Assembly: GCA_016617855.1 (NCBI GenBank)
Contig: JAECUM010011066.1
Coordinates: forward strand, 97,503-161,502
DNA: 64,000 bases
Direction of reading: 5' to 3'
Origin: Megalonaias nervosa
Lineage: Eukaryota > Mollusca > Bivalvia > Unionida > Unionidae
Shown here one piece after another: positions 6,641-30,403 of the stretch. The position numbers and the translations under genes are program-made. Under the pieces are notes generated by a model. It was not told where the DNA came from. It was given only the letters and a program-made list of their open reading frames with translations, and made no database searches. Positions within the stretch are counted from its first letter, which is position 1. Each line of letters opens with the position of its first letter.

Positions 6641-6642
6641 AC

Positions 6643-9335: not shown

Positions 9336-9814
9336 AGTAGTATAGTGGGGCGATAGGGGGCATATGAGGCTAAAGAAGGAAAAACAGCCTGGGCCTGTAT
9401 GGGGCACATATTTATAGGGACAAAAAATCACCCTGGGCCTGTATGGGGCATATGGGAATTTTGTATAGCGACAAGAGGAATGGAACAGGTAGGGTGACGT
9501 CACGGTACTGGACACTTGCAGCAATGTAGCAAGTACCATGACGTCATGCCACCTGTTTCATTTCTATACAAAGTTTGAATCATTCGCGTTCGCGTCTGTG
9601 GATAGTATAGTATGTTTTATGCATTTGCGTTCGTGTCTGTGGATATTATAATATTATACCCAAATTATACAACTGACTAAAAAAAAATTTTAGGTAAGAG
9701 AATAATGTTTTTGGGAGTTAAACATAAATTATACAATCGAATAAATTTTTTTTTTTGGCAAGAAAAAATAAATATCTTTTCGAGGCATATGAAGTGGCCC
9801 TGAAAAGGGCCTTT
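9336..9814 (+). repeat. Left terminal inverted repeat of the Polinton
   Basis: Pairs in reverse complement with 29914-30403. It contains two tandem CCTGGGCCTGTATGGGGCA motifs, two CRE-type palindromes TGACGTCA (9495-9502 and 9539-9546) embedded in a larger about 26-bp-arm imperfect palindrome, the ATCCACA-type motif also found in the internal array, and the 3' hairpin of the first gene at its inner edge. Confidence 0.95.
9796..9811 (-). terminator. Histone-type 3' hairpin 1
   Basis: Minus strand: GGCCCT-TTTC-AGGGCC, a perfect 6-bp stem and 4-nt loop, preceded by CAAAA and followed by ACTTC. It lies 14 nt after the stop of the preceding gene. A purine-rich CTCGAAAAGATA element follows at 9773-9784. 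This fits the replication-dependent histone mRNA processing signal (stem-loop plus U7-binding downstream element). It lies within the terminal repeat. Confidence 0.85.
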
Positions 9815-9825
9815 TGTTTTTTCTT

Positions 9826-10412
9826 CTATTTTCTCCAGTTCTTCCACCAGCTATTCACTTTTCCCATAATTCCTTTTTTCTTCTCCTTCTTTTCTTCTTC
9901 AGCTATCCAGTCTGGATGTCCCATTGCTCTAAACTTTTTCTGTACCTTCATCCAGTTTTGATTTAGTCTTTCAAACTCTTCTTTTCTCATTCTGTTTTCT
10001 TTCTCCTTTCTCTCTTTTGTCCAGATGTCTTTTATTTTCTTTACCTCTTCTTCCATTACGTTTTGCACTTTGTCTTCTTCTTTTTTTAATTGTTGCAATC
10101 CCCACAAGACAAAAGACCACTCAGTAAAATTTGCTTGGTCTTCTAAAAACACCTCACTTTGATGACGTTATCAAGTGCTTCCTTCAATGTCCCCACTCTT
10201 ACATACTTTGGCTTTATAAATCCTCTTATTTTTTCCACCTCCTCTTCTATCATTCCTGCCACCTGATCCCTGGCTACCTTCAGGCTAGTGACTTGACTGG
10301 TCACAAAGTCTTGGCTGACTGGGAACCTCCATTCTTTTTCAAGCCTTTCCACCACGTAGGCTGCATCCATCATCCAAAAATAACTGTGCCTTAACTGGTT
10401 AAACAATTCCAT
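9826..10412 (-). CDS. Terminal gene 1: coiled-coil, lysine-rich protein (frameshifted)
   Basis: Function unknown. The start is placed at the ATG at 10412, which follows the promoter block (TATA 10462-10468, TTGACTAGTCAA 10419-10430). An upstream in-frame ATG at 10496 overlaps promoter elements and is less likely. The product would be about 190-195 residues. The N-terminal half has aromatic-rich helices. The C-terminal half is a charged coiled coil (KEEDKVQNVMEEE, KERKEKENRMRKEEF) ending in a basic, Trp-rich tail. A one-base shift near 10145 in a T run separates the two halves, and it may be a mutation or a sequencing error. The stop is 14 nt before a histone-type hairpin. There is no similarity to histones. 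Confidence 0.65.
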
Positions 10413-10418
10413 CTTGTG

Positions 10419-10500
10419 TTGACTAGTCAACGCGGGTAGCCAGACTGACGAGCGTTCCGCGTTATATACGTCAAGCACGGACGTGAACAAAAACATCCCT
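10419..10500 (-). promoter_or_regulatory. Promoter of terminal gene 1
   Basis: Minus-strand order: AGGGATGTTTT (10490-10500), TATA box (10462-10468), an initiator-like GTCAGTCT (about 10442-10449), and the palindrome TTGACTAGTCAA (10419-10430) just before the ATG. The spacing from the upstream element to the TATA box is 28 nt, the same as in terminal genes 2 and 3. Confidence 0.75.
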
Positions 10501-10520
10501 TACACTCACTTCACATATTA

Positions 10521-10790
10521 TCTACTATCCACACAAACGAACGCGAATGCATAAAACATACCATATTTACTATCCACACAAACGAAGGAAGAGAACAAAA
10601 ATACACACCCATATCTACTATCTACACAAATGAACGAGAACGCATTAAACATACCATATATACTATCCACACAAACGAAGGAAGAGCAGAAAAAACACAC
10701 CCATATCTACTATCCACACAAACGGACGCTAACGCATAAACATACCATATATACTATCCACACAAACGAAGGAAGAGAAGAAACACACAC
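10521..10790 (+). repeat. Iteron-like array of CTATCCACACAAACGAA motifs
   Basis: Six iterations start at about 10525, 10570, 10618, 10663, 10710 and 10754 (44-48 bp apart). Two alternating half-types make three 93-bp units. A related string occurs once or twice in each terminal repeat (minus strand of about 9575-9645 and + strand at about 30128-30155). The array lies directly upstream of the gene 1 promoter, so it could be an enhancer, a replication or a packaging signal. This is inference. Confidence 0.85.
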
Positions 10791-10891
10791 ACATACACAA
10801 CAGTAAAGGAGTGAGTGTTTTTATAGTCACACTACTCTACATTCATACAAATTGGCAACTTGAATAGTCTCTCTTTTCTAGAGATTTGGTT

Positions 10892-10907
10892 AGCCCTGAG
10901 AAGGGCT
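10892..10907 (-). terminator. Histone-type 3' hairpin 2
   Basis: Minus strand: AGCCCT-TCTC-AGGGCT, a perfect 6-bp stem, preceded by AAAAAC and followed by AACCA. The loop TCTC differs slightly from the usual TTYN. The downstream purine-rich CTCTAGAAAAGAGA at 10869-10883 resembles a U7-snRNA-binding histone downstream element. Confidence 0.82.
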
Positions 10908-10919
10908 GTTTTTCTTGGA

Positions 10920-11477
10920 ACTCCAATTGCACCTGGCCAATGGTGGCACCTACCAGGTCTGGCCCCACAGACGCAACGTCGGCTCCAGTCCTGCTCCCAA
11001 TTGATGCGTGTGGCTGGGAGCGCAGAGGGAGCTTGACTGGCTTCATTATTCCAGTCTTCAGTCTGAGGGATAGTGAACACTTGTTCCCTCCTTCTTCTAT
11101 TCCACACCCTGGGATGATGTTGCTGAAGCTGCGGCTCCCACTCTTGCCGCTGTCTCTCCAACTCCTTCAAGGCCTCCTCCTCCCAATTTTCAATTTGAGG
11201 GACAGCGGCTCTCGGTCGTTCTGGTGCTGGTAGTGGCTGCGGTGTTGATAGTGGTTGTGTAGGCGTCTTCACCTCAGGCTTGACCTCACAGACAAATCTT
11301 AGCATGAGGTGAGGCAGGATCCCTCTCTTCTTTTCTTCTTCTTCTTCCTTCTTTTTTTTCCTCCTCCTCTTTTAACCTGGCTTCCTCCTGTACCGCCTCC
11401 ATAGCCAACTCATCTAGAAGGCGTCTGGCATGCTCCAGGTGCATCTGGAGTTCCAACAGGTTTTGTAGTCTGCTCAT
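10920..11477 (-). CDS. Terminal gene 2: coiled-coil/proline-rich protein (frameshifted)
   Basis: Function unknown. It starts at ATG 11477, 11 nt after the TTGACTAGTCAA palindrome. The first about 50 residues are a helix-rich leucine zipper-like stretch and a Glu/Arg coiled coil (EEARLKEEEEKKEGRRRRKEE). After a frame change near 11310 the sequence continues as a Pro-rich linker and two related segments (PQIENWEEEA and PQTEDWNNEA), each followed by tryptophan. The true stop cannot be fixed because open frames run into the 3' hairpin at 10892, so the 3' end is also damaged. Confidence 0.55.
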
Positions 11478-11488
11478 CTTCTTTTAAG

Positions 11489-11570
11489 TTGACTAGTCAA
11501 GAATGGTAGCAAGACTGACGAGTGCTCTGCTTTATATTCCTGGAGCACGAACGTGAAGGAAAACATCCCT
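11489..11570 (-). promoter_or_regulatory. Promoter of terminal gene 2
   Basis: Same architecture as gene 1: AGGGATGTTTT at 11560-11570, TATA-like AATATAAA at 11532-11538, GTCAGTCT at about 11512-11519, and TTGACTAGTCAA at 11489-11500. The 28-nt spacing between upstream element and TATA box is preserved. Confidence 0.75.
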
Positions 11571-11728
11571 TTCACAAAAACTTACCATAACCAAAAACAA
11601 AACATCAAACGCGCGGACCTAAAAGAGACACTTACGTTGACTTTTTTACTTACAAACACAGACATACATTATCTGACAAGACAGAGAAAGTAAGTGCTTA
11701 TAGACACACTTCTTTTTTTTTAAACATA

Positions 11729-11730
<2 letters not shown>

Positions 11731-11763
<33 letters not shown>
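11731..11763 (+). repeat. (CA)n microsatellite
   Basis: A CA-dinucleotide run in the spacer between terminal genes 2 and 3. The rest of the spacer (11571-11790) shows nothing recognisable. Confidence 0.85.
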
Positions 11764-11767
<4 letters not shown>

Positions 11768-11815
11768 TTTGTTTTTGCAATTTTAATTAGTATGTCTTTT
11801 CTAGAGTATTGGGGT

Positions 11816-11831
11816 AGCCCTGAAAAGGGGT
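11816..11831 (-). terminator. Histone-type 3' hairpin 3
   Basis: Minus strand: ACCCCT-TTTC-AGGGCT, a stem with one mismatch, preceded by AAAAAC and followed by ACCCCA. It lies 36 nt after the stop of terminal gene 3. The downstream element CTCTAGAAAAGACATA lies at 11791-11806. Confidence 0.8.
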
Positions 11832-11867
11832 GTTTTTGTTATTGACGGGAGTGATGTCAATCTTTTT

Positions 11868-12251
11868 TTACTGTCTAAGATTGCGTCCCCGTCTGGCAGC
11901 AGGATTTCCTATACGATATGGCCTGCTTCTGCGGAAAGAGAAGGAGAACTCTTTGATGTCCACACGGCAGTCGACAAAACCTCTGTCTGATTCTTGCTGC
12001 TGCTGCTGCTGCTGCTGTTGCTGCTGCTGTTGTTGTTGCTGTTCTCTCTGCTTCTGAAGTCTGTACTTTTCTGCCCATTCTTCTTGTTCTCTCTTGATTT
12101 CCTCTCTGAAGACCTCTTCTATCAGGTCGTGGGCTACTGCTAACATCCTGGCATTCTCTATCTCTTCAGGCTTAGGTATCAGGTTCAGCCTGACACGATG
12201 TAAATTGACGTAAGCTTCGTTCAGCTGGGCTAGTCTGGAAGGTATATTCAT
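11868..12251 (-). CDS. Terminal gene 3: glutamine-tract protein
   Basis: An open frame of 127 residues from ATG 12251, chosen because it follows the TATA box (about 12299) and a TTGACGAGTCAG palindrome variant. An in-frame ATG at 12311 overlaps the TATA box. The protein has a helical N-terminus, a Glu/Arg-rich stretch, an uninterrupted polyglutamine tract encoded by mixed CAG/CAA codons (about 11997-12045), and an Arg-rich C-terminus. The family is not recognised. It is the most intact of the three left-end genes, and its polyQ length could vary among copies. Confidence 0.7.
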   Translation of the reverse strand: MNIPSRLAQLNEAYVNLHRVRLNLIPKPEEIENARMLAVAHDLIEEVFREEIKREQEEWAEKYRLQKQREQQQQQQQQQQQQQQQQESDRGFVDCRVDIKEFSFSFRRSRPYRIGNPAARRGRNLRQ

Positions 12252-12254
12252 AGG

Positions 12255-12337
12255 TTGACGAGTCAGCAGTAGATGGCCAGACTGGAGACCAACCCGCTTT
12301 ATATGGTTCAAACGCGGACGCGATAGAAAACATCCCT
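12255..12337 (-). promoter_or_regulatory. Promoter of terminal gene 3
   Basis: AGGGATGTTTT at 12327-12337, TATA-like CATATAAAG at about 12299-12305, TCCAGTCT at about 12277-12284, and TTGACGAGTCAG-type palindrome at 12255-12266. The distance from upstream element to TATA box is again 28 nt. Confidence 0.72.
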
Positions 12338-12464
12338 ACTAGGGTTTTTTGTTTGGGCCGGAACGCTATGATAGCGTATATCATGGTGAGGGATAGAGAG
12401 AAATTCGAACAGCATATATTCACAGTCTTTTTTTGAAAACAAACGACAGACACATTTTTTTCAA

Positions 12465-12480
12465 AACAACATTTTTATTC
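12465..12480 (-). terminator. AATAAA poly(A) signal after the protease gene
   Basis: The minus strand reads TTTGAATAAAAATGTTG about 55 nt after the protease stop. The internal virion genes therefore seem to use ordinary polyadenylation, in contrast to the hairpin ends of the terminal genes. Confidence 0.6.
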
Positions 12481-12532
12481 AAACAAACAATCAACTATCA
12501 ACAATTAACAAATAACAATAACAACAAACAAA

Positions 12533-13092
12533 TTATTTTTGACAAGGTTGACAACGTTGTGAAACCATGTGAGATTTCAAGTGATGGAAGTCATGAGGCC
12601 ATTGATGTACACTACGTTTCCTAGCTAAAGACAAAAAATAGCCATAATGGTCACAAAACCATCGATCTACTTTCTCATCGTTTTTAGAAGAGTTACGATC
12701 AAAATAAGTCACTAAATGTTCTAAAGGATATCCACGACTGCGATGATGAAGAAAATACACACAATATTGTACACACACCATAGAATCTGTGCCTTGTAAT
12801 TTCACGTTATTGTATCGTGTCGTCTGGGCATTTCTTCTCATAAAGTCAATGATATCGTCTTCCAAAGGGGGGTAATCCATACGAATCAAAATATTCCACA
12901 CAATCCTCTTGAGGGAAGTAGACGGCAAGTTCAGTGAGTTCCTATGAGATGACTTTCGTCCGTGTTGATGACATAAGCTTGATGGTCTTGAGGTTTGCGA
13001 TGAGGTAGTTCATCTTTAGCGTACACGACAGGATTCCAAGAACCAGTATACGAACTATTGTTCAAATAGTAATAAAGTTCCCAGGTATCCAT
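12533..13092 (-). pseudogene. Adenain-like cysteine protease (PRO), frameshifted
   Basis: Homologous to adenovirus-type maturation proteases (C5 family), which cleave capsid and core precursors in the virion. From ATG 13092 (MDTWELYYYLNNSS) the N-terminal half reaches the catalytic histidine (GTH). A frame break with a TGA follows at about 12944. The YFDSYGLPP segment, characteristic of the family, is in a second frame, and a third frame from about 12880 (in a C6 run) holds the nucleophile region (CVQYCVYFL). The usual CG before the second cysteine appears as CV. With two frameshifts and an altered active-site neighbour it is unlikely to work. Expected length is about 185 residues. Confidence 0.85.
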
Positions 13093-13114
13093 TTTTTGTT
13101 TTCTTGTTTCTTTT

Positions 13115-13621
13115 TCACAGGTAATGATAAGTCATCAATTCAATTCTGACTTTTTGTTTGAAACGCTCTGTCAAGTAACCGTTTCTTCGCCTTGTCTCCC
13201 AACTCTGGGCTAAGAGAGCTTTGATGCGATAGATCTCCAGAGTAGTCACTGGTGGGCAGGAATGATCACGCAGCCCTTTATACCACTCATGCAACACTGC
13301 TTCTTCCGAGATGAGACTCCAAGCCTCGTTCAGATACTCGACCAATTTTTCTTCTTGACTCATTACCAGACATTTATCGTGTTGAATTTGACTGGGATGA
13401 TCGTTTTGACATCCATAGCAATCTCTCTTGGTCAGTTCTGTAATTTTATCCGCCAGGTGTTTAGCAAAACAGGACACTAAATGTTGTACTTGTTCTGGCC
13501 ATCTGGACTTGACCACTACCTCGTCCTCTTTGTCTTGGTTTTGGGGTTCTGTTTTAACGCTGTCCTCCCATTCCATTTCCAAAGATTCTCTACCGTTCAG
13601 TGAGGGATAAGAGTCTTCCAT
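13115..13621 (-). CDS. Conserved Polinton protein with CxxC-H-H-C motif
   Basis: An intact 168-residue ORF from ATG 13621, five bases after the capsid stop and 22 nt before the protease ATG. The N-terminus is acidic. The centre has CYGCQNDHPSQIQHDKC, a likely zinc-binding C-x2-C-x4-H-x4-H-x2-C arrangement. The C-terminus is helical. I do not recognise a function. Its position between the capsid and protease genes suggests a virion or assembly role, which is inference. Confidence 0.75.
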   Translation of the reverse strand: MEDSYPSLNGRESLEMEWEDSVKTEPQNQDKEDEVVVKSRWPEQVQHLVSCFAKHLADKITELTKRDCYGCQNDHPSQIQHDKCLVMSQEEKLVEYLNEAWSLISEEAVLHEWYKGLRDHSCPPVTTLEIYRIKALLAQSWETRRRNGYLTERFKQKVRIELMTYHYL

Positions 13622-13626
13622 TGTTT

Positions 13627-14946
13627 CTAATAGTCTAGAATGACTTCTCTCAAACTGTTCATTTCGATGGTATTATCGAATTCGACATACAAGATGACGT
13701 TGACCGTCTCGGTAACAGCTTCTGCAAACTGAAGTTCCACACGCAGTTGACCAGATTTTATAGAGTGGAAATGTCCCTCTTGGCTGCTTTGGTCTGGAGT
13801 GAAATCAAAGGCCCACAAAGTGTAACCTTCTACATAATCTTCGTACGAAATACCGTGACTGGTGTTGGTTCCATGTTGTCCGGTAGCTTCGTACAGGGAC
13901 AAGTACGATCTCAAGTAATTCTTCTGGGCAAAGTTAGGTTCCAAGGGTCTGGTACGCAAGGTCTTGCCATCGCGACTGACTTCGATCTTGGACACTCTGT
14001 AGTGCTTAAACTGGAAAGGATTTTGATCGTGGGCTCCGTTGAGGGTTGAATTATTGACGATGCCAACGATTAAACGCTTGGGTAACTGTCCTTGGAACAG
14101 ATGATCTTCGATCTTGGATCGGAGTCCAGCAGCAATGGTGAATGTTTTCACTTCTACACGTCGTATCGGATACGTAGCGGTCGATCTGCTCAGTGCTTGA
14201 CTGATGTCGTTTCCCGCTTTAGGTAACACTTCTACGCGACGCACGTAAAGTCTGGCTTCTTGGGCGATGGTTTTGTACTCGTTGGCATGAGCCATCAAAT
14301 GGAAAGCGACACTGCTGCGATTGAGTCACAGGCGAATATCCACTCCGTTGAGGAAATACTTGTCTTGTAACCACATGTCCAAATGCAAGCGATCCATCAG
14401 TTCTAAACTACGACCTTGTAGGATTTTCCTTCGACGGTCGTTAAAACTCACATTGTGAGGATCGTCATCGACTGTCAGGGCTGTGTCGTTAAACGCGTCC
14501 TCACCTGCGGTGTCAGGTTTCCATACCACGCAAGCATCCAGATGAGTGTTCTTGGCCTCTTTTCCATACGTCAAGAGATTTTCCAGGTACGCTCAGTAAG
14601 GGTAAGTATCCATACTGCTGCTGACCAGTTTGTTATTCAAGTACAAATCCACTTCGCTGAACAAGGAATGCATGAAATTGTTGACGGGAGCTACTCTGGC
14701 ATCGGCTCCCGGATTGGTGTTGTTCGTTTTGATCACTTTGAGTTTCAGATACAAGTAACTGCTATTCAGATCGATGTAATCTTCGGGTTGTCCTTTGATT
14801 TAAAACTCGATGGGAGCTGAATCCGTCAAAGAGGAGACGGGATGAAATTCGACCCATTGGAATTCTTGCATCGTCATCATGGTGGGTGGCATGGCAAACA
14901 GATCCAGTTCCGACTTGGAACAAGCGCAAGACTCTCGGTGCATCAT
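13627..14946 (-). pseudogene. Major capsid protein (double jelly-roll), three in-frame stops
   Basis: Polinton hexon-like capsid protein, expected to form trimeric capsomers. One frame of 440 codons runs from ATG 14946 (MMHRESCACSKSELDLF) to TAG at 13627, but is interrupted by TAA at 14800-14802, TGA at 14593-14595 and TGA at 14326-14328. The last 223 codons are open and carry typical C-terminal features: GAHDQNPFQFKHY, an acidic DFTPDQ segment, and the terminal VEFDNTIEMNSLREVILDY. The frame is otherwise kept throughout, so the gene decayed by point mutation. Both TGA codons could come from CGA by C-to-T change at CpG. Confidence 0.92.
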
Positions 14947-15064
14947 TTTCTCTGATTTAATAATCAAAAACGTCTGACTCTCGGACGGTTTTTCTTTTCT
15001 TAGTCTTTCTAGCTCTAGGGGTGTGAAGTCCTCTGAAGGAGTGTTTTCGTCGTCTTTTTCTGCC

Positions 15065-15397
15065 TTATCCTTGCTGTGGCGTCAGGGAAGCAGGAATGTC
15101 TGACTCGGCATCGCCCAGGGCATTTATAGGAGTTTCTCGCCGGCCCAAAATGTCTTTATCCGTTTGAAGTAAGACATTTTTGCCTGCTCTCAAGAAATCG
15201 CCTTTGGGATTTTGTTTGTCAATGATGACATTTTGGAGAAATTCTTTACCTTGCGTCCACGCGGCATCTTTCAAGGCGTGCAATCCCCGTGTCACCATCG
15301 GTTTCAAAACGGGAGCCGCTGTACGAAAGGCTGATTTTAGCATATCACCTAAACCATGTCCTCGCTGTCGAGCGACTCCTTGGTACACAGGATACAT
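15065..15397 (-). CDS. Small virion core-like protein (adenovirus pX/mu-like, tentative)
   Basis: About 110 residues from ATG 15397, starting MYPVYQGVARQRGHGLGDML. The Arg/Gly-rich start followed by an amphipathic helix resembles small minor virion proteins of Polintons that have been compared with adenovirus pX. That assignment is tentative. Its ATG overlaps the penton stop as TAATG. Between its stop and the capsid ATG (14947-15064) a coding-like acidic stretch is open in the capsid frame, so the original C-terminus may have been longer before a frameshift. Confidence 0.6.
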   Translation of the reverse strand: MYPVYQGVARQRGHGLGDMLKSAFRTAAPVLKPMVTRGLHALKDAAWTQGKEFLQNVIIDKQNPKGDFLRAGKNVLLQTDKDILGRRETPINALGDAESDIPASLTPQQG

Positions 15398-16323
15398 TAC
15401 TGACAAAAGGTTAGAGTAATCGTTTTCGAAAAATGGAGTTTCACTGTGACTTTCCCTTTGGTGAATGGAATATTTTGTCCAAGATCTCCTTTTATAGTAA
15501 TGTTGACAGTGTCGAAATACGACTTACTGACGGGCAAATAGTGAGGATGTACAAATTCGCGGTGAACGTGATAGGTGTTTCCACCTTCCTCGTCAGCGTT
15601 CGTGGCAGAATCCACTTTGAAAGGAATGACACGCAGTAACGGTACGGAGGTGTGTCCCACCACGTTGTACTCCGCCACATCGGAGTACACAAAAATCAAA
15701 TTCAGTCCTTGGTTGATTTCTAGAGGGAATCTAAAATATTTCGCAAAATCTGAGTTACCGGTCACGGCTGGTATTTCGTTTGCAATCTTGATCAACTTGT
15801 GGTCTCCACCCAAAATGTCGTACAATTCAGGACAAAATGTAATGGCCAATACTTTGTCCTCTGAAAATTTCATCATCAGGCGACGAGCTATTTTTTGGTA
15901 ATCGATCGTGACACTTTTTCTGGTTTTCTCCAAGGCTTTACCAAACACGTTATTGAACCTGTCAGCAATAGCGTTCACCAAATGTTGACCACTAAAATAA
16001 TAGCCTGAGAGAATTTTCAACCGATAAGTGGTACGTTTAATTTTGGGGTCTTGTGATTTCATAGAGTTAGCTGGACTGCTACGTTCATCCAAGTGTTGTT
16101 GCACTTGTTCGTCATAAACTTCTAACGTAAAAGTGTTTTGATTTTCAATGATGTTTTTGATTTGTGTAGGGTGAATCATTTCCACTAAAGCCACTTCCCA
16201 ATGGGCTTCGTGATCCAGCTGAATGGCCTGAGTTAATTTGGCCGTGTAACAGCACAAAGTGTTATTGGGAAACACCTCCATGGAACTGTCACTGGGTAAC
16301 GTTAAGTAAAATTGGTTGTTCAT
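15397..16323 (-). CDS. Minor capsid/penton protein
   Basis: An intact 308-residue ORF. It starts MNNQFYLTLPSDSSMEVFPNN and ends with a KGKVTVKLHF segment, the signature of the Polinton penton-like single jelly-roll protein that occupies the vertices of the capsid. The middle contains a KIKRTTYRLKI strand and a long helical region. There is no frameshift, unlike most neighbours. The ATG overlaps the stop of the upstream membrane-protein gene (ATGA at 16320-16323), and its own TAA overlaps the next ATG (TAATG at 15395-15399). Confidence 0.9.
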   Translation of the reverse strand: MNNQFYLTLPSDSSMEVFPNNTLCCYTAKLTQAIQLDHEAHWEVALVEMIHPTQIKNIIENQNTFTLEVYDEQVQQHLDERSSPANSMKSQDPKIKRTTYRLKILSGYYFSGQHLVNAIADRFNNVFGKALEKTRKSVTIDYQKIARRLMMKFSEDKVLAITFCPELYDILGGDHKLIKIANEIPAVTGNSDFAKYFRFPLEINQGLNLIFVYSDVAEYNVVGHTSVPLLRVIPFKVDSATNADEEGGNTYHVHREFVHPHYLPVSKSYFDTVNITIKGDLGQNIPFTKGKVTVKLHFSKTITLTFCQ

Positions 16324-16727
16324 AATTCCAGAGTTCTAGTGTCTGAGGAGTCACTGGAAGTCAGAGGAGTGTCTAAAAGAGGATGGTTAGGGTGACTGTA
16401 GGATGTGGGACTAACGTTGGACGCAAGGCTACTGCTGTTCTTGTTTCCGTTAGAGGAATATTTCAAAGACGGATTGGTAAAAAGGTAACCAATGCAACTG
16501 CTGAGTAAAATGGTCCACAATTGTTTGTCTCCTTGTTGCAAACTCAAATTGGCAATGGCAGCACCGATGACACAATACACCACAAAGATTTGGCAGAAAA
16601 AGACGATTTGCGTTTTAGGCACACGTTCTCTACACCACAACCACAAGGGTTGCTTTTGTTAATCTTGCAGAGAAGAACTGGGCGACGGAGTGGTCACTGC
16701 AGTAGCTGAGGCTGTGTTGAAGGGCAT
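16320..16727 (-). pseudogene. Small two-helix membrane protein with a premature stop
   Basis: One frame runs from ATG 16727 (MPFNTASATA) to TGA 16320, about 135 codons, with an in-frame TAA at 16659-16661. Two hydrophobic helices are visible: IVFFCQIFVVYCVIGAAIANL and LWTILLSSCIGYLF. A Ser/Thr/Pro-rich tail follows. Small proteins with the motif RVPKTQ-helix-NLSL-helix-NPS are common next to penton genes in Polinton-like viruses, and their role is unknown. Six bases separate it from the integrase stop. Confidence 0.75.
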
Positions 16728-16732
16728 GATGG

Positions 16733-19015: not shown

Positions 19016-19760
19016 CATCTTTCTCGGTTGGTTCATTAGTTCTTTGGCACACAGCAAGAAATACACTAACGTCGATGGCTTGTCACACAGTCTTTTATCC
19101 TTTTTTGGGGGACAGTCGTTTCGTCATAAAGGTGACGATGTGTTTTCCAAAATCGCTATGGAATCCTCCTCTTTGGTGGCTCCTCTTTTTCTTTGGACGA
19201 GTGTGTCTTTTCTGGGGGTAACGTATATGTTTGACTAAGCGTTTTTTCGGACGACGAAACTGTTATTTTCTATTTCCTTTTTCTTTCTGGACAGGAGAAC
19301 GACAAGGAGGAGACATCTTTTGGTGTACAACATACACTGACATCCATGGCTCGACATACGTTCTTTTATCTTTTTTTCAGGGTTAAATCTTGTAAAATCA
19401 ATCCCTTTGAGAAGTACCTTAGCATATCTTCCCCTTTGGTTGCTCCTTTTTTTCTTTGGACGATTGTGTCTTTTCTGGGGGTGTCGTCTATGTTTGACAA
19501 TGCGTTTTTTCGGATCACGAAACTGTCTTTTTCTTTTTCGTTTTTCTTTCTGGACAGGAGAACGACAATGAGGAGACATCTTTTGGTGTACAACATACAG
19601 TGACATCCATGGCTCGACATACGTCCTTTTATCTTTTTTTAGGGTTAAATCTTGTAAAATCAATCCCTTTGAGAAGTACCGTAGCATATCTTCCCCTTTG
19701 GTTGCTCCTTTTTTTCTTTGGACGAGTGTGTTTCTTCTGGGGGTGACCTCGATGTTTGGC
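18985..19760 (-). repeat. Three tandem repeats of about 255 bp in basic core-like coding DNA
   Basis: Units end/begin at about 19240 and 19500. The two right units are nearly identical (for example both contain AAAATCAATCCCTTTGAGAA). The left unit is diverged. Each unit encodes an MSP start-like motif and a Lys/Arg-rich segment with a MLRYFSKGL-type helix. Confidence 0.85.
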
Positions 19761-21437: not shown

Positions 21438-21524
21438 AGTAGTGTAAGAAATGTCACTTTTGACACGAAGACAGACAAGACAGGAGTTTCTATACTTTTT
21501 TTCAGGACACGTTTATTTTCATCT

Positions 21525-21809: not shown

Positions 21810-21856
21810 TAGTTTAAAAGTTACTTTTTTTCAGTGAACGTTTTAATTTTTTAGGA

Positions 21857-22593: not shown

Positions 22594-22983
22594 TCAAACA
22601 CTTCTCCTAGAGCGAAAGTAACGGACAAAGTGAGTAATTTCTGGCCACTGCCATTCCAGGAAACGGTCAAGAATGTCATTAAAATCTTGTAATGTAAATG
22701 GTCTAAAGCGGAATATTAGGAAGAACGCACCCTTGATCCAGAGAAATCTGACTTGTTTGTTGACTTTTGTCAATTTCCTCTTGTGAATTTCTCGATACAA
22801 AAGTTCTACAGTCACTAATTGAGATTTGGCTCTGGCAAGTCCCTGCCAAATGTCCTTGTAGATCTTCTCTTGCAATTTGTTTGGTAATGTTTGAAGATTA
22901 TTTTTCCAATGGGGTTTAAATACTTGTCTAGGGGTTGTCCAACGTTTGACTCCAAGCCAAGGAGCTGGTTTCTTAAACGACAT
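22594..22983 (-). CDS. Unknown Polinton protein, intact ORF
   Basis: 129 residues from ATG 22983 (MSFKKPAPWLGVKRWTTPRQ). It is basic and helix-rich, with many Trp/Phe residues in the second half (FRFRPFTLQDFNDILDRF). No motif is recognised. It lies 12 nt downstream of the BIR gene stop, so the two may share a transcript. The 22321-22593 gap upstream of the next gene holds only a TATA-like element. Confidence 0.6.
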   Translation of the reverse strand: MSFKKPAPWLGVKRWTTPRQVFKPHWKNNLQTLPNKLQEKIYKDIWQGLARAKSQLVTVELLYREIHKRKLTKVNKQVRFLWIKGAFFLIFRFRPFTLQDFNDILDRFLEWQWPEITHFVRYFRSRRSV

Positions 22984-22995
22984 GGTATACCCACT

Positions 22996-23472
22996 TCAAT
23001 GACGAGGTCCCACTAAAGGTAGGTAGTGACAATCTGGAAACCATCGAGCATGTTCCAGGTAAGCGCAATCTTTCTTCTCCCACTCGTGAAGTGACACAAC
23101 GCAACTGAAGCACTTGACTTTATCCCCATCGCCCATGTAGATAAACCCGGCTCTAGCTACTTCTTTGGGGGTAGGTCCTCCCAGATATTTTGGCCATTTT
23201 CCTCGGAAGGTTTGGATCCAACTTTCAAAGTCGCAGCATTCAGGCAAATGCACAGGGAACGAATATTCGTCTTTCACAGGTTCATTTCGATGAGGGTATG
23301 GTGAAATATGTAGGAGTTTGCTCAGTTTTACATGACATCCGTAGGGTGGTAGCCGCATGGTTTCATAATGATGACATCCACCATGAAAACCAGTAAAGTG
23401 AAAAGGTGTACGATAACGAGTGGCATCGCTTTCGCATCCGTCAGGTTTGACAGGCACAGCATCACTTTCCAT
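22996..23472 (-). CDS. BIR-domain (inhibitor-of-apoptosis-like) protein
   Basis: A BIR zinc-binding module in the C-terminal half: FESWIQTFRGKWP, ARAGFIYMGDGDKVKCFSC, then WEKKDCAYLEHARWFPDC. This gives the C-x2-C-x16-H-x6-C ligand set. No RING or CARD domain follows; the protein ends right after the BIR. The start is put at the in-frame ATG 23472 (158 residues), although the open frame extends further up without an ATG. A TATA box (about 23676-23685) lies upstream, and a short upstream ORF precedes it. IAP genes are repeatedly captured by insect and mollusc DNA viruses, where they block host cell death. That role here is inferred from the domain only. Confidence 0.88.
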   Translation of the reverse strand: MESDAVPVKPDGCESDATRYRTPFHFTGFHGGCHHYETMRLPPYGCHVKLSKLLHISPYPHRNEPVKDEYSFPVHLPECCDFESWIQTFRGKWPKYLGGPTPKEVARAGFIYMGDGDKVKCFSCVVSLHEWEKKDCAYLEHARWFPDCHYLPLVGPRH

Positions 23473-23654
23473 GGCAGGTATGGTAGTAGTAGTTATAGCA
23501 AAGTTCCCATGATGTGGTACTGAATCGCTGAGGTCATAGCGTACGGCATCCCTACCATCGCAAGGCACAGCATCGCACTCGAGTTTGCTCTTGCTCGATA
23601 CTTGCTGTTTGAAAGGATTCAGCTTTCTCGCTTGGTAATGGTAGTGACAATGAA

Positions 23655-26600
23655 CTATCGGTCTTGAATGTTGTCCCTTTTTATATGCTGGCCAATATCG
23701 GCGAGACCGTACAGTAAGGTGAAGTGATTGGGAAGCCGTACTCGTTTCTGGTACACGATTTGATAGACTTTTTCCAAGGGCCGGCTGACGATTTGGTGTG
23801 TGGGTAAACGTACAATCTTGTGCGGTTCGTAGGTGGTCACTTTAAAATTTCCATCCTGTCCAGACTGCAAGGCTTCTTTCAAGACGTCAAAGTTCACCAG
23901 TGGACTGGTGCGATAATTGAGAGTCAATCCTTTCACTTTTCACTCCGTGTGCACTTTTCCTTGTGGGTCCCGGTATTCGTAGCCGTAATTTTTGGGACCG
24001 CCACTTGCAAAACTTAGAATCTTGTCGTCGGGATGCTCGTCCGTCCAGGCTCTTAAACGGTCTCCTTCGATGACAGGGTGAGTTTGACCCAGGCGATCGA
24101 TGTAGATGCAACTGTCCGTGTCAAAATACAGCACACGATCTCCTAACAGTTCTAAAGCTTCGTACAGTATTAAACGAGCATGGGCTGTCACGTAAGCCGC
24201 AATGATGACATTTCCAAATTTGTCGGCTTCTACAAAGTCCAGTTCTTCTTCGTAATTGACTAAGATCAAGTCCACGAATGACGTCCATGTGTTTCATGTA
24301 TTTAGTTTTGTCGCAAATCATCTGGAAATAGCGAGAAGGTTCTGTCAAATACTCCGTCTTGGGTAAACACGGTCGTTGTGCCATTTTGCCCCGCAAGCAA
24401 TTTAACATCACTTTGGCAAACGATCGCCTTCCTTCGTTTTTCTCATTGTGGCCTAAAGTGATGCATTCCTTCTCCCAGTATTTCTCTCTGAATTTCTTTT
24501 GGTCTTTGGGAGTGTGGCAGCAGGAAGGATAGCTACTAGCTTCTTGCTTCAGTTTCAAAAAAGCATTCACGTAGTCTGCGAAAATGCCTTTTTGAGTCTC
24601 GTCACACTTGTGGTATTTTTGTGTCTTGCGAAAGTGGTAAATTTCGTACACTTCTAACAGTTGGTATCCCAAGTCCAGAGCTTTAAACAATTCCAAGCTA
24701 ACCCACGTTCCCGTCAAGGCGCGTTCTTCCTGAGTGTGCTGACAAGGTCGGTCTTGGTTGCACGTTTCGGCACAAGTACGGCACAAGAGAAACACCAGTT
24801 TTCCTTGGCAATGGTGAGGTAAAACGGGATGGTAGAAGTACGTGGGAGGCAAAACTTTACATTTGATCAATCCTTCCTATTGTCGATTGTTGTCCAGGTC
24901 ATTGTGTTCCGTCAGCAATTGCGGGTGCCCTGCGGAAAAGTGACAATATTTGCACACGTACGGATACAGAGAACACACATGCAAGTATTTGATTTCCTCT
25001 CCTTTCTTTTCGTTGGCTTGGTACAGCAAACAGGTGGCATTAGTCCATCCTCCGTACAAACTGTCCCCGGGGGATCAGTGGGTCCACCAGCTTGTATCTT
25101 TCCACGATGCGCTTAAACTCGGGATCGGTTTTCAATCGGTGATCGTACTCGTGTTCCCACATTTCTACCACTTGGTATCCTTGCTCTTCTAACTTCAAGC
25201 GTCGCTTACAAGTGACCTGGTACAAGTCTTCCATGGTCCGTTATAAAAACTGAGTTGTCGTGTTACGTTGAGGGTAGCAGAAGGGACATCCGTGAAATAA
25301 GCATCCGTTAAACTCGTACACGATGTTGGGGTTTTCTAAGTCCCAGCCATCCACCGATTACCTTCCGATGGTCTTTTCGCCTCCTCCGTTGCGAGCATGT
25401 TGGATCCATTTGTCTTCCTTGTCGCACAAATAATGTAACCAGCGTAGGGCTTTGACCGAGTATTGATGTTTGACAAAGTTGGTCGTTTGAGGACTGATGA
25501 CAGCTAGGGTGTTTTCGGGCATGAATCGTTGGCGGTACACTAAGGAACACGCTTTGGCAATGGTGCAAGCTTCTTTCAAATAATCGATCCCTCCGTGTTC
25601 CATGAACAGTTCTCGAAATTTTCCACAGCAACGCCATAAAATGTCCACGTCGGAACGACAATATTTTAACATTTCTTCCTGAAAGTCGATGGGGTCCGAG
25701 GCGTGAATTTGGTACCATGCGTAGAAAGCTTCTCGTTGTTCGGTACGCATGTTATCGGGGTCGTAGTAGTGAGCCTCAGGCAAATTGGGTAGAACGGCGT
25801 GTTTATTGGTTTCGGTATTGAAAAAGTGTGGAAAAAAGCCTTTGGCCATTTCTGTCATTGCAAACGTTTTAGGCATGCGAGTCAAAGGCATGGTCAAATA
25901 ACTCATCGAATCTTTAAACTGCACTTGACCCACTTGCATGGAAATGATTTTGGCTCCGTTCAAAGTCACTTTAGGACGTTCGGTACTTTGTTCCATATAG
26001 TATCTGAGGAGAAATTACCCATCGTATCCCGAGAAATTGTGAGCCATCACCGTGGCATAGCGATGACAATCTCCGTAACGTTCGATGTCTTCTTGGCTCC
26101 ACGTTTCGTCGATAGGGTCTAGGATCCATTGGGCAAAATCGGCCAACGTGTTCGGTCCCCGAAAGATTTTTTAAGATAGGCTCTTGGATGCACTTCTTGC
26201 ACGCAGAAATTAGGAATGTGAATGCCAGTCTCTTGCATGCATTCGAAATCGAAAAAGATGAAATTGCCTTTCTTCTGGTTATCTTCTTCTTCTTCTTCGT
26301 GTTTGGAATGGTATTTTTGAATGTAGCATTAGTGTTCCAAGTCCACGATTTGGCGACAAATGTGACATCGCTTCTTTCCTGAACAGACGTTCGCTTTGGC
26401 ATTATTGGTACGTATGCCTTGTCCACAAGTAGGGCACAATCTCAGGAGTTGACAAGCACATTTCGGCTGTGAATCTTGCGTCTTTAGATGTTGTTGGTAA
26501 CAAACGTGCGCGGGGCCCCGAGTGGCCGAGTGGTCTAAAGCGCTCTCCGTTACGAATCACTGCCATCTCACCTCTGTCTGCGTGGGTTCGAGTCTAAGAT

Positions 26601-27848
26601 TCGGCGAATGTGGATATGTGAGAAAGCTTGCAAGTAGCTTCTCGTGGGTCAGTGGTTCTTTCCGGGGATTTCACGGTTTCTTCCTCCACCATTAATACTG
26701 GCCGCCATGTATAGCCTATCGTGTGTTGAAAAATGGTGTTCAGCCCCACAACAACAACAACAACAACAAACGTGCGCTGACAAGCAGAGCAATGCACTCG
26801 TTTTTGTCCTTGGTCTAGATAGGGTTTAGAGGCTAAACATCACTCACATTTCCTTCCAGAATGCTTGTGTTGCTCTCGATTGTTATAGCCAGTCACATTT
26901 CTCACAGTAATAACTGTATCCCAGAAATGCAGTGATACTGGTAATGGCATCAAAATGTTCATCGTGATAATAGACGTGAATGTATTTTCCGTCTTTGAAA
27001 TTTTTACCTCGAAACAACAGTGGTCCGCGCACTTCTTGAGGGTGTACTTTCAAGGTGTAGCATGGAGCCAAGACGTCTTGCAACTTTTGCATTTCAGGAA
27101 TGCCACAGGGTGTGTCTTTGGATATTCCCGCTTGCTGTAACAGGAGTTCTGCTTCTCCTTGTTGTTTGGTTCGGCTAGATTTTCGAATAGTTTGCCAGGC
27201 TCGTTTCCATTCTGCCGTGTCGTTCTTGTCGGCATACGTTCGTCCAACCACGATAACACGGGCTAAACACATCTTGTCTTGAGTGTTGTTAATCTGAACG
27301 AGACTGCGCTTGATGCTGCGAAGATTGTCTACGAATAACACCTTTTTTGCGTTGTCCTGTCCCTTGGGGAGGAGACACGTGGGTCATGAACAGTGTTGCT
27401 TTTCCGTCGGTGATGTGAAACTTGTCGTTGGATTGTTGCACGTGTTGAATCTTGTCGATGACTTTGGAAGGTGTCAATTCTGCTGGGCTACTAAACTCGA
27501 TCCAAACGGGGGGCTTCAAACTGTCGTGATGAATGGCAAGTCTCAAGCGATCGTCTTCTTTGGCTTCACATTGCTGTTTCAGTGCGGTTAACAAAGAATC
27601 CCACACATCGGTGATGAGCCCTTCTGCTTTCTCCAACGGTTCGTCGGACTTGAAATCTTTAAACTTCACTGTGTACGTGTAAGCTGTAGTTCTAAATTTC
27701 TAGAGGAGCGTTTGTCCGTTTCTCGAATGTGAAAGTACTTTTCAGGGTTTACTGGTGGTGACGGACTTTGACTGGGTGTAGACTCTCTGGGTCTGGATTC
27801 TGGCTCACTCATCTCGTCTTCAAAATCGCTGGCATGAATTTGAGTCAA
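23655..27848 (-). pseudogene. Protein-primed family B DNA polymerase (PolB), heavily broken
   Basis: The element's replicative polymerase. Visible landmarks on the minus strand: acidic N-terminus (27666-27848), N-terminal domain (26883-27669), Cys/His zinc-like region (about 26280-26880), exonuclease I DFE (26242-26250), exonuclease II NFSGYDG (about 26021-26041), exonuclease III YCRSDVD (about 25645-25668), a GCLFHGC motif (about 25280), motif A (about 24966-24995), motif B KVMLNCLRG (about 24385-24412) and motif C YFDTDS (about 24112-24130). At least eight frame breaks or stops are present, including stops at 25358 and 24877. A SINE sits at 26512-26766. The motif A catalytic aspartate is changed to His (codon at 24979-24981). 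Confidence 0.93.
26512..26766 (+). mobile_element. tRNA-headed SINE, copy 2, inserted in the Polinton PolB
   Basis: Same family as 8924-9200: GGGGCCCCGAGTGGCCGAG head, B-box GGTTCGAGTC, common body and (CAA)n tail. The target duplication CAAACGTGCGC lies at 26501-26511 and 26767-26777. It separates Cys-rich segments of the polymerase and shows that the SINE was active after the Polinton arrived. Confidence 0.92.
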
Positions 27849-27984
27849 GACTTCAGCTACTGTGTGAGGCGATAAATCACGTTTCTGCTCTTACTTTCTT
27901 CTCCTTTCTTTACGAAATAATGCGATCGTTCCATCTTGACTGCAAAAAGTCAAAATGACTACATTTGAAGTCATAAACCCCTAT

Positions 27985-28069
27985 ATATCCATGTCAGGCT
28001 CAGTGTATATATAAAAGAGCTGGTGCCTTCCCTCTCAGTATTCATTTCACTCTCAAGCCGACCAGCACG
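27985..28069 (+). promoter_or_regulatory. Promoter of the zinc-knuckle gene, divergent from PolB
   Basis: TATATATAAAAGAG at 28003-28017 lies about 55 nt before the ATG, with an initiator-like CTCAGTATTCATT at about 28034-28046. PolB is transcribed in the opposite direction from the same about 200-bp interval. Confidence 0.65.
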
Positions 28070-28603
28070 ATGGAAGAGCCCACCCAAATCGAACTTCTGA
28101 TCAGAGCTTTGCGAGGTGTCATACGAAAGTTTTCTTCAGACAAGCCGATGGACTACTCCCCCTCCTTTCGAGATAAAAGTCAAGATACTTGCTATATCTG
28201 TCAGAAGAAAGGGCATTGGGCTACAGAATGTGCAGACCATCAAAAAAGCAAAACCAGTGTCAGAAGAGACAAAAGTCAAGATACTTGTTATCCTTGTCAA
28301 GAGAAAGGACATTGGTCTTCAGACTGCCCTAAGAAACAACAGGAGCATGAGGAAGAAGAAGAGGTACCCTCGGCAAAGGAAGAACCCCGACACATTCAGA
28401 AAGAGAAGACAGAAAGGAAAAGAAGACGAGAAAAAAGTCAGGAAGAAGAGGAGGAAAAAAATGTGAAAGTGAAGAAATTAAAAAAAACAGAGAGAGTAAA
28501 GAAAAAAGACACAGAAGAAGTCTATGAACTTTTTAAAAGTGATGTGTTATGTTGTGTTGTGACACTGAATTGTAAATGTTTGTACCAGAATAGACCAGAC
28601 TGA
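28070..28603 (+). CDS. Two-zinc-knuckle (CCHC) basic protein
   Basis: An intact 177-residue ORF. Two CCHC zinc knuckles are near residues 41-54 (CYICQKKGHWATEC) and 72-85 (CYPCQEKGHWSSDC), each with C-x2-C-x4-H-x4-C spacing and preceded by the same DKSQDT sequence, a duplicated module. The rest is a Lys/Glu-rich, probably coiled-coil tail and a short Cys-containing hydrophobic end. Zinc knuckles of this kind bind single-stranded nucleic acid in retroviral nucleocapsids and cellular CNBP-like proteins. A role in genome handling is inference. It is one of the few open genes of the element, and a relic copy exists at 3930-4368. No 3' hairpin follows it. Confidence 0.85.
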   Translation: MEEPTQIELLIRALRGVIRKFSSDKPMDYSPSFRDKSQDTCYICQKKGHWATECADHQKSKTSVRRDKSQDTCYPCQEKGHWSSDCPKKQQEHEEEEEVPSAKEEPRHIQKEKTERKRRREKSQEEEEEKNVKVKKLKKTERVKKKDTEEVYELFKSDVLCCVVTLNCKCLYQNRPD

Positions 28604-28755
28604 AAAAACGTAAGTGTCTCTTGGTTTTAATTGTTTAGAATAATAAGGACCTACACTCATGCACTCACATATGTACATCATTGAACAAACATGGGATTTT
28701 GAGTTTTAATTGATTTTGGCAAAATGAATACTATCTCTTTTCGAAAGAAGTGAGT

Positions 28756-28771
28756 GGCCCTGAAAAGGTCC
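28756..28771 (-). terminator. Histone-type 3' hairpin 4
   Basis: Minus strand: GGACCT-TTTC-AGGGCC, a stem with one mismatch, preceded by CCCAAA and followed by ACTCAC. It lies 34 nt after the stop of terminal gene 4. The downstream element TTCGAAAAGAGATAG is at about 28731-28746. Confidence 0.8.
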
Positions 28772-28805
28772 TTTGGGTGTTTGTTTTTTTAAAAAACAGA
28801 CAAAC

Positions 28806-29423
28806 TCAGGAACGAGAAGCAATCCGCTTTAACTGCCTTAAGCCTTTGCCACGGCCAAGGCCTACTTCTGGACTTGCTCCTATCAATGATTTGGTAGAAA
28901 TCACTAGGGGTGGTATTTCCGGTGTAATAACAGGGTTAGACTGTGGCTCGGGAAGGTCTTTTTCTCTTGGGTCGTAATAAAAAGGTCTTATACATTTGTT
29001 TCAGACTTCTTAAGGCGGCCAAAATGTCCAAGAACACCGTTACCGTTTGAGGTTCACTGTTCTCGTTCTCTCCTAGACCTTGTTTCTTCTCTGCTGCTTC
29101 TACCTGTCGTTTCCTTCTTGCCTCTTCTTCTTCTCGCTGTTGCTGTTCAAGGAGAAATGCTTGTTCTGCCTCTTTCTGCTGCTGTAAAAATTTCTCCAAT
29201 TCTTCTTTCTGTCTCAGTTTAAAATCCTCGACGTGTGGTAAAGAAGGAGAAGGTACTGGTACTGGACAAATTCTTGCGAAGAGAGAAAATCTACTAAATC
29301 CCAATTGAAATCGGTCTCTTCTGGAAGTAGCGCTGTGTTAACTTTGGTAGCCACTGCTGTGCCATCGCCTCTCGTCTCCACAGCCGGTACACCCCAATTC
29401 ATCGTCTTCTTAGTTTCAGTCAT
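28806..29423 (-). pseudogene. Terminal gene 4: acidic/Gln-rich coiled-coil protein (frameshifted)
   Basis: Starts at ATG 29423 (MTETKKTMNWGVPAVE). The N-terminal part ends in an acidic segment (TDFNWDLVDFL). A frame change near 29255 leads to a long Gln/Glu coiled coil (KQKEELEKFLQQQK-like, then EEEEARRKRQVEAAEKK), and a second shift near 28955 leads to a Pro/Gly tail ending at TGA 28806. The stop is then 34 nt before hairpin 4, as expected for a histone-like transcript, which supports this reading of the 3' end. Function unknown. Confidence 0.55.
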
Positions 29424-29655
29424 GTTTCACAAAACAATGTCGCATCGATTCACTGCGCACAGACGCTAGCGCACCTATATAAGGAATGTGACGTCACAAG
29501 TAGCTCTCTTCGGATTGGAAGACAGACTCCGCGAAGTGACTGAATTTTGTAACGCGTATTGGGATTGGTGAACAATTTCAATCCGTTTCGATCCGATCTT
29601 TCACTATAAATAAACGCGGTTCACTTCATTCCCTTCACCTGTTCCTCGTCACAAG
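29424..29655. promoter_or_regulatory. Bidirectional promoter with CRE site between terminal genes 4 and 5
   Basis: It carries TATA elements for both directions (CCTTATATAGG at about 29473-29483 for the minus gene and CACTATAAATA at about 29600-29610 for the plus gene). A perfect CRE/ATF palindrome TGACGTCA lies at 29489-29496, with two CCAAT-type motifs (ATTGG at about 29514 and 29562). The same layout, including TGACGTCA at 6233-6240, is kept in the decayed copy. Confidence 0.75.
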
Positions 29656-29889
29656 ATGTGGACCAACGTTGAATCGTCTATCATCCTATCGTCGATGCTG
29701 TTCAACCCGGACTATCCAATGTATGTCAGATCATCATGGGCAATTACCCAGATCACTGATACAGCCCTTTGGAAACGAAGGATCTATGTGGAGAGACAAG
29801 GCTGTCTGAAGCGAGTCCCCATTTACGGTCCAGAGGTTAGAGAACGTTTGAGAAAGAGAAGAAGATCAGTGAGATGTTCTCCATGTTAA
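29656..29889 (+). CDS. Terminal gene 5: small basic protein
   Basis: An intact 77-residue ORF from ATG 29656 (MWTNVESSIILSSMLFNPDY), rich in Trp/Met at the start and in Arg at the end (RERLRKRRRSVRC). There is a relic copy in the decayed element (about 6402-6640). The stop is 27 nt before hairpin 5. The family is unknown; a nuclear or nucleic acid-binding role is possible from composition only. Confidence 0.7.
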   Translation: MWTNVESSIILSSMLFNPDYPMYVRSSWAITQITDTALWKRRIYVERQGCLKRVPIYGPEVRERLRKRRRSVRCSPC

Positions 29890-29913
29890 CAAACTGGTTT
29901 TAATATAAACCCC

Positions 29914-30403
29914 AAAGGCCCTTTTCAGGGTCACTTCATATGCTTCGAAAAGATATTTATTCTTTGTTGCCTAAAATTTTTTTTTATTCGATTTTATAAT
30001 TTATGTTTAACTCCCCAAAACATTATTCTCTTGCCTAAATTTTTTTTTTAAGTCGATTTTTATAATTTGTGTATGATAGATTGACGTTCATCAATCTATG
30101 GAAAAAAAGCGAATATATAGAACATACTATACTATCCACAGACACGAACGCAAATGATTCAAACTTTGTATAGAAATGAAACAGGTGGCATGACGTCACA
30201 GTACTTGCTACATTGTTGCAAGTGTCCAGTACCGTGATATCACCCTACCTGTTCCATTCCTCTTGTCGCTATACAAAATTCCCATATGCCCCATACAGGC
30301 CCAGGGTGATTTTTTTTGTCCCTATAAATCTGTGCCCCATACAGGCCCAGGCTGTTTTTCCTTCTTTGGCCTCATATGCCCCCTATCGCCCCACTATACT
30401 ACT
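29914..30403 (-). repeat. Right terminal inverted repeat of the Polinton
   Basis: Reverse complement of 9336-9814 with scattered differences. The outer CRE palindrome is kept (TGACGTCA at 30191-30198), while the inner one reads TGATATCA at 30235-30242. A small perfect hairpin TAGATTGA/TCAATCTA (about 30084-30105) occurs only on this side. Confidence 0.94.
29917..29932 (+). terminator. Histone-type 3' hairpin 5
   Basis: GGCCCT-TTTC-AGGGTC, all six pairs forming with one G-U wobble. It is preceded by CCCAAA and followed by ACTTC, and a downstream CTTCGAAAAGATATT lies at 29943-29957. It is in the right terminal repeat and is the mirror copy of hairpin 1. Confidence 0.85.

Follow-up and report, generated by a model that had tools for sequence, protein, structure and literature searches.

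Candidate histone-type mRNA 3' ends behind the end genes of a Polinton in the bivalve Megalonaias nervosa

Introduction

Can the 3' end signal of replication-dependent histone mRNAs serve genes that do not encode histones? This question is raised by a stretch of 64,000 nucleotides (nt) from Megalonaias nervosa (GCA_016617855.1, contig JAECUM010011066.1, positions 97,503 to 161,502), here called the window and numbered from its first letter. In the window, a Polinton carries a 16-nt hairpin of the histone type behind each of five genes at its ends, L1, L2 and L3 on the left and R2 and R1 on the right. Judged from the sequence, these genes very probably end their mRNAs via the animal histone pathway, i.e., by SLBP- and U7-dependent processing and without a poly(A) tail. 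This suggests that the Polinton borrows the S-phase message-processing machinery of the cell for non-histone genes.

In animals, replication-dependent histone genes are expressed in S phase, and SLBP binds the hairpin of their mRNAs, aids processing and controls translation (PMC1924863, in excerpt). The U7 small nuclear ribonucleoprotein (snRNP) cleaves 4-5 nt past the stem, and the U7 RNA pairs with a downstream element (PMC7026596, in excerpt).

Hairpins and downstream elements in the window

The hairpins and the purine-rich elements following them are located as given below. RF00032 is the Rfam family of the histone 3' stem-loop, and the span of each match is given in brackets.

9796..9811, minus strand: L1 hairpin; 6/6 pairs; RF00032 38.4 bits (9770-9816)
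9775..9780, minus strand: L1 downstream element AAAAGA, 16 nt past the stem
10892..10907, minus strand: L2 hairpin; 6/6 pairs, loop TCTC; RF00032 23.0 bits (10868-10912)
10872..10877, minus strand: L2 downstream element AAAAGA, 15 nt past the stem
11816..11831, minus strand: L3 hairpin; 5/6 pairs, mismatch at position 2; RF00032 17.2 bits (11792-11836)
11795..11800, minus strand: L3 downstream element AAAAGA, 16 nt past the stem
28756..28771, minus strand: R2 hairpin; 5/6 pairs, mismatch at position 3; RF00032 27.0 bits (28731-28776)
28736..28741, minus strand: R2 downstream element AAAAGA, 15 nt past the stem
29917..29932, plus strand: R1 hairpin; 6/6 pairs, one of them G-U; RF00032 31.0 bits (29912-29958)
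29948..29953, plus strand: R1 downstream element AAAAGA, 16 nt past the stem
4589..4604, minus strand: R2-type hairpin of an older Polinton copy; 5/6 pairs; RF00032 25.4 bits (4565-4609)
6643..6658, plus strand: R1-type hairpin of the older copy; 6/6 pairs; RF00032 24.8 bits (6638-6684)

The five hairpins of the Polinton are found at the coordinates and on the strands proposed by a first-pass annotation of this DNA, L1, L2 and R1 with full pairing and L3 and R2 with one mismatch each. The window was also searched with RF00032 (gathering score 34) at E<=10, which resulted in exactly seven sites in the 64 kb, five in the Polinton and two in the older copy, with L1 alone above the gathering score. 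The E-values were computed over 4227 families and the weakest RF00032 match has a value of 8.8; divided down to RF00032 alone, about 0.002 chance matches are expected in the window compared to the 7 observed. The annotation had proposed this family search for the element and its relatives: all five sites are recovered at E<=10, and many other copies match as well (see below), whereas only one of the five exceeds the gathering score.

AAAAGA begins 15 or 16 nt past the stem at 7/7 sites, within the 10-20 nt first proposed for a purine-rich element. Pairing is complete (6/6) at four of the seven sites and 5/6 at the other three, and two of the six stem pairs vary on both sides among them. In the loop, SLBP contacts a U at the first and the third position; this U is present at position 1 in all seven sites and at position 3 in six, the exception being the older R1-type hairpin with the loop TTCC. 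The L1 and R1 hairpins have to be counted as a single repeat-borne unit instead of two independent ones because they are located in the two inverted-repeat arms of the element.

A pattern combining the stem-loop with AAAAGA matched five times in the window and in none of 100 shuffled windows. Under a looser stem-loop rule, still with AAAAGA, nine matches were found, i.e., the seven sites and two in a tandem repeat, compared to a shuffle mean of 0.29 and a maximum of 3 (200 shuffles); without the AAAAGA condition there were 38 matches versus a shuffle mean of 19. A model built from the seven sites, circular for these seven, found no eighth site in the window, the next score being 13.1 bits versus at least 63. 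A TTGCC word is present about 10-15 nt after AAAAGA in 5/7 sites, e.g., at 9753-9761 (minus) and 29967-29975 (plus). As a signal it was rejected, since TTGCCWAAA is no rarer than chance across the window (5 versus 3.06 expected).

The end genes and their stop codons

The hairpins follow small genes, of which the following open reading frame (ORF) pieces were identified:

10143..10496, minus strand: gene L1, first ORF piece (117 aa), frame broken beyond; no Pfam family at cut-off
10832..11305, minus strand: gene L2, ORF piece (157 aa), overruns the gene end (window copy only)
11868..12251, minus strand: gene L3 (127 aa); no Pfam family at cut-off
28936..29337, minus strand: gene R2, ORF piece (133 aa, stop to stop); no Pfam match
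29656..29889, plus strand: gene R1 (77 aa); 3 database relatives, no Pfam match

The stop codon precedes the hairpin by 14 nt at L1, 29 nt at L2, 36 nt at L3, 34 nt at R2 and 27 nt at R1, in agreement with the 14-36 nt originally given; for L1 and R2 the stop is placed tentatively, both frames being broken in this copy. That each hairpin lies behind a separate small gene is true in general, with the exception that the L2 frame of the window copy passes through its own hairpin. Of the 12 database relatives of L2, 11 include the C-terminus and all 11 terminate ahead of the hairpin. Similarly, the L2 C-terminal motif is present in 27/29 genomic copies and directly followed by a stop in 26 of these 27, 28-31 nt ahead of the hairpin. 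For R1, the motif was found in 24/29 genomic copies, all 24 with the stop, at a spacing of 27 nt (21 copies) or 31 nt (3 copies). The idea that the hairpin is coding was rejected, as the L2 relatives and all R1 copies with the motif stop ahead of it.

As annotated before, none of the genes encodes a histone: a Pfam search at E<=0.1 with two relatives of L2 and the pieces of the other four genes (L1, L3, R1, R2) gave no match to a histone. L1, L2 and L3 have a promoter block and the 3' unit in common and show no clear likeness in between, and they are therefore regarded as unrelated coding parts in one expression cassette. The promoter-like block (approximately 10410-10510, 11485-11560 and 12255-12340, minus strand) contains a TATA-like stretch and the palindrome-like TTGACTAGTCAAC. 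In the L2 protein family (10930-11020, minus strand; relatives P0125-P0135), the C-terminus is strongly conserved and contains clustered cysteines (RRCVCGARPGRC.H); the protein matches no Pfam family at cut-off. Among the R1 relatives, P0122 terminates where R1 does and P0123 is truncated; P0121, encoded on a 523-base contig, extends past the R1 end with ...QKPFSGPLTLLENIYYVNCQT. By hand back-translation from the protein letters, this extension appears to fit the same stem-loop at the R1 position, with one mismatched pair at its base, followed after about 15 nt by an AAAA-type stretch.

Recurrence in other copies of the element

The host genome has many copies of the Polinton. It was searched over 2,190,679,487 bases in 54,709 contigs. 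The R1 end gave 4827 first-look candidates and the L2 end 4175, of which 40 each were scored, so that the candidates are confirmed in part. Counts out of 29 refer to the 29 best other copies per end, which are 90-97% identical across the queried ends.

With RF00032 at E<=1, the R1 site was recovered in 29/29 and the R2 site in 22/29 of these copies. Of the 29 left-end copies, 20 were analyzed with RF00032, which matched the L2 site in 15, the L3 site in 16 and the L1 site in 13 (one L1 being cut by the stretch end). A sequence scan of all 29 left-end copies found L2 in 29, L3 in 26 and L1 in 18, the L1 site being assigned by position in our own reading and some stretches ending early. Altogether, 35 RF00032 matches across 49 other loci exceed the gathering score (16 + 16 + 3). 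Complete 6/6 pairing was observed in 23/29 copies each for R2, R1, L2 and L3 and, for L1, in 15 of the 27 copies that could be aligned; these counts are from alignment-based extraction, in which some L1 and L3 rows took a sister site. The L3 mismatch of the window copy is present in 0/29 other copies, and its R2 form is not among the listed variants, which cover 26/29 copies. At locus L014 (2724-2770, plus strand), a second repeat-type histone hairpin lies next to the R1 site, perhaps as the end of an adjoining element.

Since the best copies are 90-97% identical, retention of the hairpins in them is weak evidence if taken alone. The hairpins are 89-98% identical to the window and exceed both flanks at R1, L1, L2 and L3, and AAAAGA is 96-99% identical at R1, R2, L2 and L3, compared to 76-96% for the flanks, taken as 60 nt beyond it and 100 nt ahead of the hairpin. 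The spacer between both is 75% identical at L1 and 89-98% at the other sites; among the L1 copies, two different spacers are found between hairpin and AAAAGA.

Moreover, older copies were analyzed. With the older copy as query, 1110 candidates were obtained and 40 scored, the others being 68-90% identical. From these, 38 diverged copies were picked by their promoter-side match (69-90%) irrespective of the hairpin and then inspected downstream, the stretches L074 and L104 having been extended toward a second aligned block before inspection. At E<=0.01 the model found the unit kept in 27/38 of them, and a simple score of at least 18 was reached by 23/38, in comparison to 0/80 control stretches (right flank). 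RF00032 at E<=1 matched 9 of the 20 diverged copies submitted.

Poly(A) signals

In the window, no AATAAA is located within 600 nt past L1, L2, L3 or R1. Among the other copies, AATAAA within 150 nt past the hairpin was observed in 1/29 for R1, 1/29 for R2, 0/29 for L2 and 0/27 for L3; in these counts the hairpins were placed with up to 3-4 mismatches and might in some cases be a sister site. The first-pass annotation had assumed that the virion genes, by contrast, use poly(A). This part is weak: within 600 nt downstream, AATAAA follows just 3 of 17 other ORF ends in the window (some of these ends being guessed). A clean split between end genes without poly(A) tails and virion genes with them therefore does not follow from these counts.

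Proposed mechanism

Since the anatomy of the 3' ends fits the histone machinery, 3' end formation directed by SLBP and U7 is the most likely function of the unit. The 5' ends of U7 RNAs have a UCUUUU-type core that is complementary to AAAAGA. The transcript of an end gene would fold into the 16-nt hairpin, which the host SLBP would bind; the host U7 snRNP would pair with AAAAGA, 15-16 nt further downstream. The nuclease recruited by U7 would then cleave a few nt past the stem, creating an mRNA without poly(A) tail. Expression might thereby depend on S phase, or on stores of SLBP in eggs and early embryos, and either would suit an element that needs copying with the host DNA in germ cells. We infer that the end-gene transcripts may be coupled to S phase. 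For a large lineage of animal Polintons, we give about even chances to the existence of two transcript classes. One would be tail-less end-gene mRNAs processed by SLBP and U7, present only in S phase or, from stored SLBP, in early embryos; the other would come from the inner virion genes and have different 3' ends. The early programme of the element would then be gated by host DNA replication.

Evidence against the proposed mechanism and alternative explanations

Several observations weigh against histone-type processing. Six of the seven window sites are under the gathering score of RF00032. The second stem pair (G-C) of the histone hairpin is read by SLBP, and it is mismatched at L3 and at the older R2-type site; together with R2, these make three of seven sites with one stem mismatch each, and all three are weak folds. 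Regarding conservation, the R2 hairpin is no closer to the window than its flanks (89% versus 90%), and AAAAGA at L1 is only 87% identical. The unit is absent from 11 of the 38 diverged, decayed copies. Related elements lacking the hairpins had been named in the annotation as what would speak against it; they do exist among these decayed copies, and the remaining evidence is not overturned by them. Furthermore, compensatory stem changes in the diverged, decayed copies are not above those in shuffles. ATTAAA, a weaker poly(A) signal, is present within 150 nt past the hairpin in 9/29 copies for R1 and 10/29 for R2, compared to 0 for L2 and 0 for L3. As for the host, a search with the U7 family scored 65 of 657,865 candidates without finding a host U7, and its controls gave no signal either, so that an absence of U7 cannot be demonstrated in this way.

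These observations have to be seen together with four other explanations. Histone-type cleavage might merely serve as a compact transcript ending among crowded genes, with mRNAs that are not limited to S phase because SLBP persists in the relevant cells or decay control is absent. This is possible, yet clearly less probable than the S-phase-linked pathway proposed above. The small genes on the left are crowded head-to-tail, AATAAA is rare past the hairpins, and the expected anatomy is identical in both cases. Nothing separates the two; in animals, the hairpin is linked to S-phase expression of histone mRNAs (PMC1924863, in excerpt). Alternatively, a block of hairpin and downstream element might have been taken over a single time from the histone genes of the host and persist unused through recent ancestry and copying between repeats. 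The high identity of the best copies, the position of L1 and R1 in the repeat arms and the lack of excess covariation in diverged copies are in line with such relics. However, AAAAGA keeps a fixed distance in old and young copies, at L1 even with different spacers, the unit is present behind unrelated coding parts, and the distance to the stop is nearly constant, which renders this explanation improbable.

It is more improbable still that the hairpins work at the DNA level or as binding sites for a protein encoded by the element, e.g., in replication, packaging or repeat pairing, with a convergent likeness to histone ends. Two of the five hairpins do lie within the inverted-repeat arms, whereas the other three are internal and follow a gene in its sense orientation, and the likeness includes the flanks and the downstream element. 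Chance hairpins in A/T-rich DNA can practically be dismissed: the loose rule yields about 19 matches per shuffled window as long as no downstream element is required, while the low shuffle mean once it is required, the RF00032 E-values and the recurrence in copies all speak against chance.

Comparison with known systems

The 3' ends resemble those of replication-dependent animal histone mRNAs in the 16-nt hairpin, the A-rich 5' flank, the AC-type 3' flank, the purine-rich downstream element, the position just past the stop and the small size of the genes. They differ in that the genes are not histones by Pfam, in the L2 loop TCTC and in the 3' flank, which is often ACTTC or ACTCA. In C. elegans, the hairpin of histone 3' ends is likewise followed by a conserved downstream element and the mRNAs terminate 3-6 nt past the hairpin; there, a poly(A) signal lies right past the element, whose core is AATCC, in contrast to the rare AATAAA and the core AAAAGA in the Polinton (PMC1924863, in excerpt, for C. 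elegans).

In the excerpt of the same 2007 paper, replication-dependent histone genes are called the only genes known with hairpin-ended mRNAs that lack poly(A) tails (PMC1924863). If the proposed processing is true, a virus-like mobile element with the histone signal behind several unrelated genes breaks this histone-only rule and shows a way for a DNA transposon to couple its timing to host replication; its end-gene transcripts would be missed in RNA data obtained by poly(A) selection. Term searches of an open-access library gave no paper on Polintons with a histone stem-loop or histone mRNA, in agreement with the novelty first claimed, and none that joins the histone stem-loop with a transposable element and a virus; among the papers listed for related terms, no such description was noted.

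In IMG/VR, no relatives were found by the ATPase, a PolB piece, the ATPase alignment or the L2 alignment, and a phage collection searched by the ATPase gave no match. The stem-loop-plus-AAAAGA pattern matched once in IMG/VR, on a contig whose ORFs look phage-like (L002). With three further loci (L003-L005), hairpin patterns gave four loci in IMG/VR, and all four were rejected, being without RF00032 match. A 4.6-kb contig of a metagenome-assembled genome (MAG; L001) carries a distant Polinton middle part without the element ends, and RF00032 matched neither this contig nor its genome. One relative of the Polinton ATPase is listed under a Candidatus Thiodiazotropha taylori MAG; this symbiont lives in lucinid clams, which hints at a mollusc host.

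Structure of the Polinton and its surroundings

The element at 9336-30403 is a Polinton, as annotated, and its main parts and the older copy are:

9336..30403, no strand: Polinton insertion; identical 30-nt ends, 6-bp duplication, inverted-repeat arms, matches to rve, DNA_pol_B_2 and Pox_A32
9336..9821, no strand: left inverted-repeat arm, holding the L1 hairpin; inverted pairs I1-I3, 88-98% complementary, covering most of the span
29907..30403, no strand: right inverted-repeat arm, holding the R1 hairpin; inverted pairs I1-I3, covering most of the span
1471..6700, no strand: older, broken, collinear Polinton copy in scattered blocks (blastn blocks and alignments)

A perfect 6-bp target duplication, CCCGCC, flanks it at 9330-9335 and 30404-30409, and the terminal 30 bases of both ends are identical inverted copies. 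Its ORF pieces match the rve integrase (4e-11), DNA_pol_B_2 (5.6e-11 and 2.5e-09, two pieces) and Pox_A32 (7.9e-06) in Pfam; several reading frames are broken. The 6-bp duplication, inverted repeats, rve integrase, PolB and A32-type ATPase are shared with Maverick/Polinton elements, which occur in molluscs (PMC10294476, in excerpt); its end genes with histone-type 3' ends set this one apart from the members described in the literature searched. The ORFs 15397-16323 and 13627-14295, checked for capsid identity, gave no Pfam or NCBIfam match. The older copy to the left matches in blastn blocks (1471-6355 versus 24845-29612, 64-80% identity), and the R1 and R2 hairpin regions are alignable between both elements. 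The left neighbor stretches L006 and L007 contain no hairpin.

Within the Polinton, an ORF at 22996-23472 (minus) encodes a BIR domain as in inhibitors of apoptosis (E 1.3e-20). A gene at 28070-28603 (plus), convergent with R2, has two CCHC zinc knuckles, and a basic ORF contains tandem copies of about 263 nt (19109-19758). A repeated SINE-like (short interspersed nuclear element) sequence, with a tRNA-like start as judged by eye, is located at 8924-9144, 26512-26732, 45470-45666 and 63885-64000, one copy lying inside the PolB region of the Polinton. By eye, the flanks 7600-9335 and 30404-30600 suggest that the Polinton is inserted in another broken PolB-like gene, parts of which extend to either side of it. 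Further to the right, a Tc5 transposase DNA-binding domain (54038-54412, plus) and an AAA ATPase domain (56662-57225, plus) are encoded.

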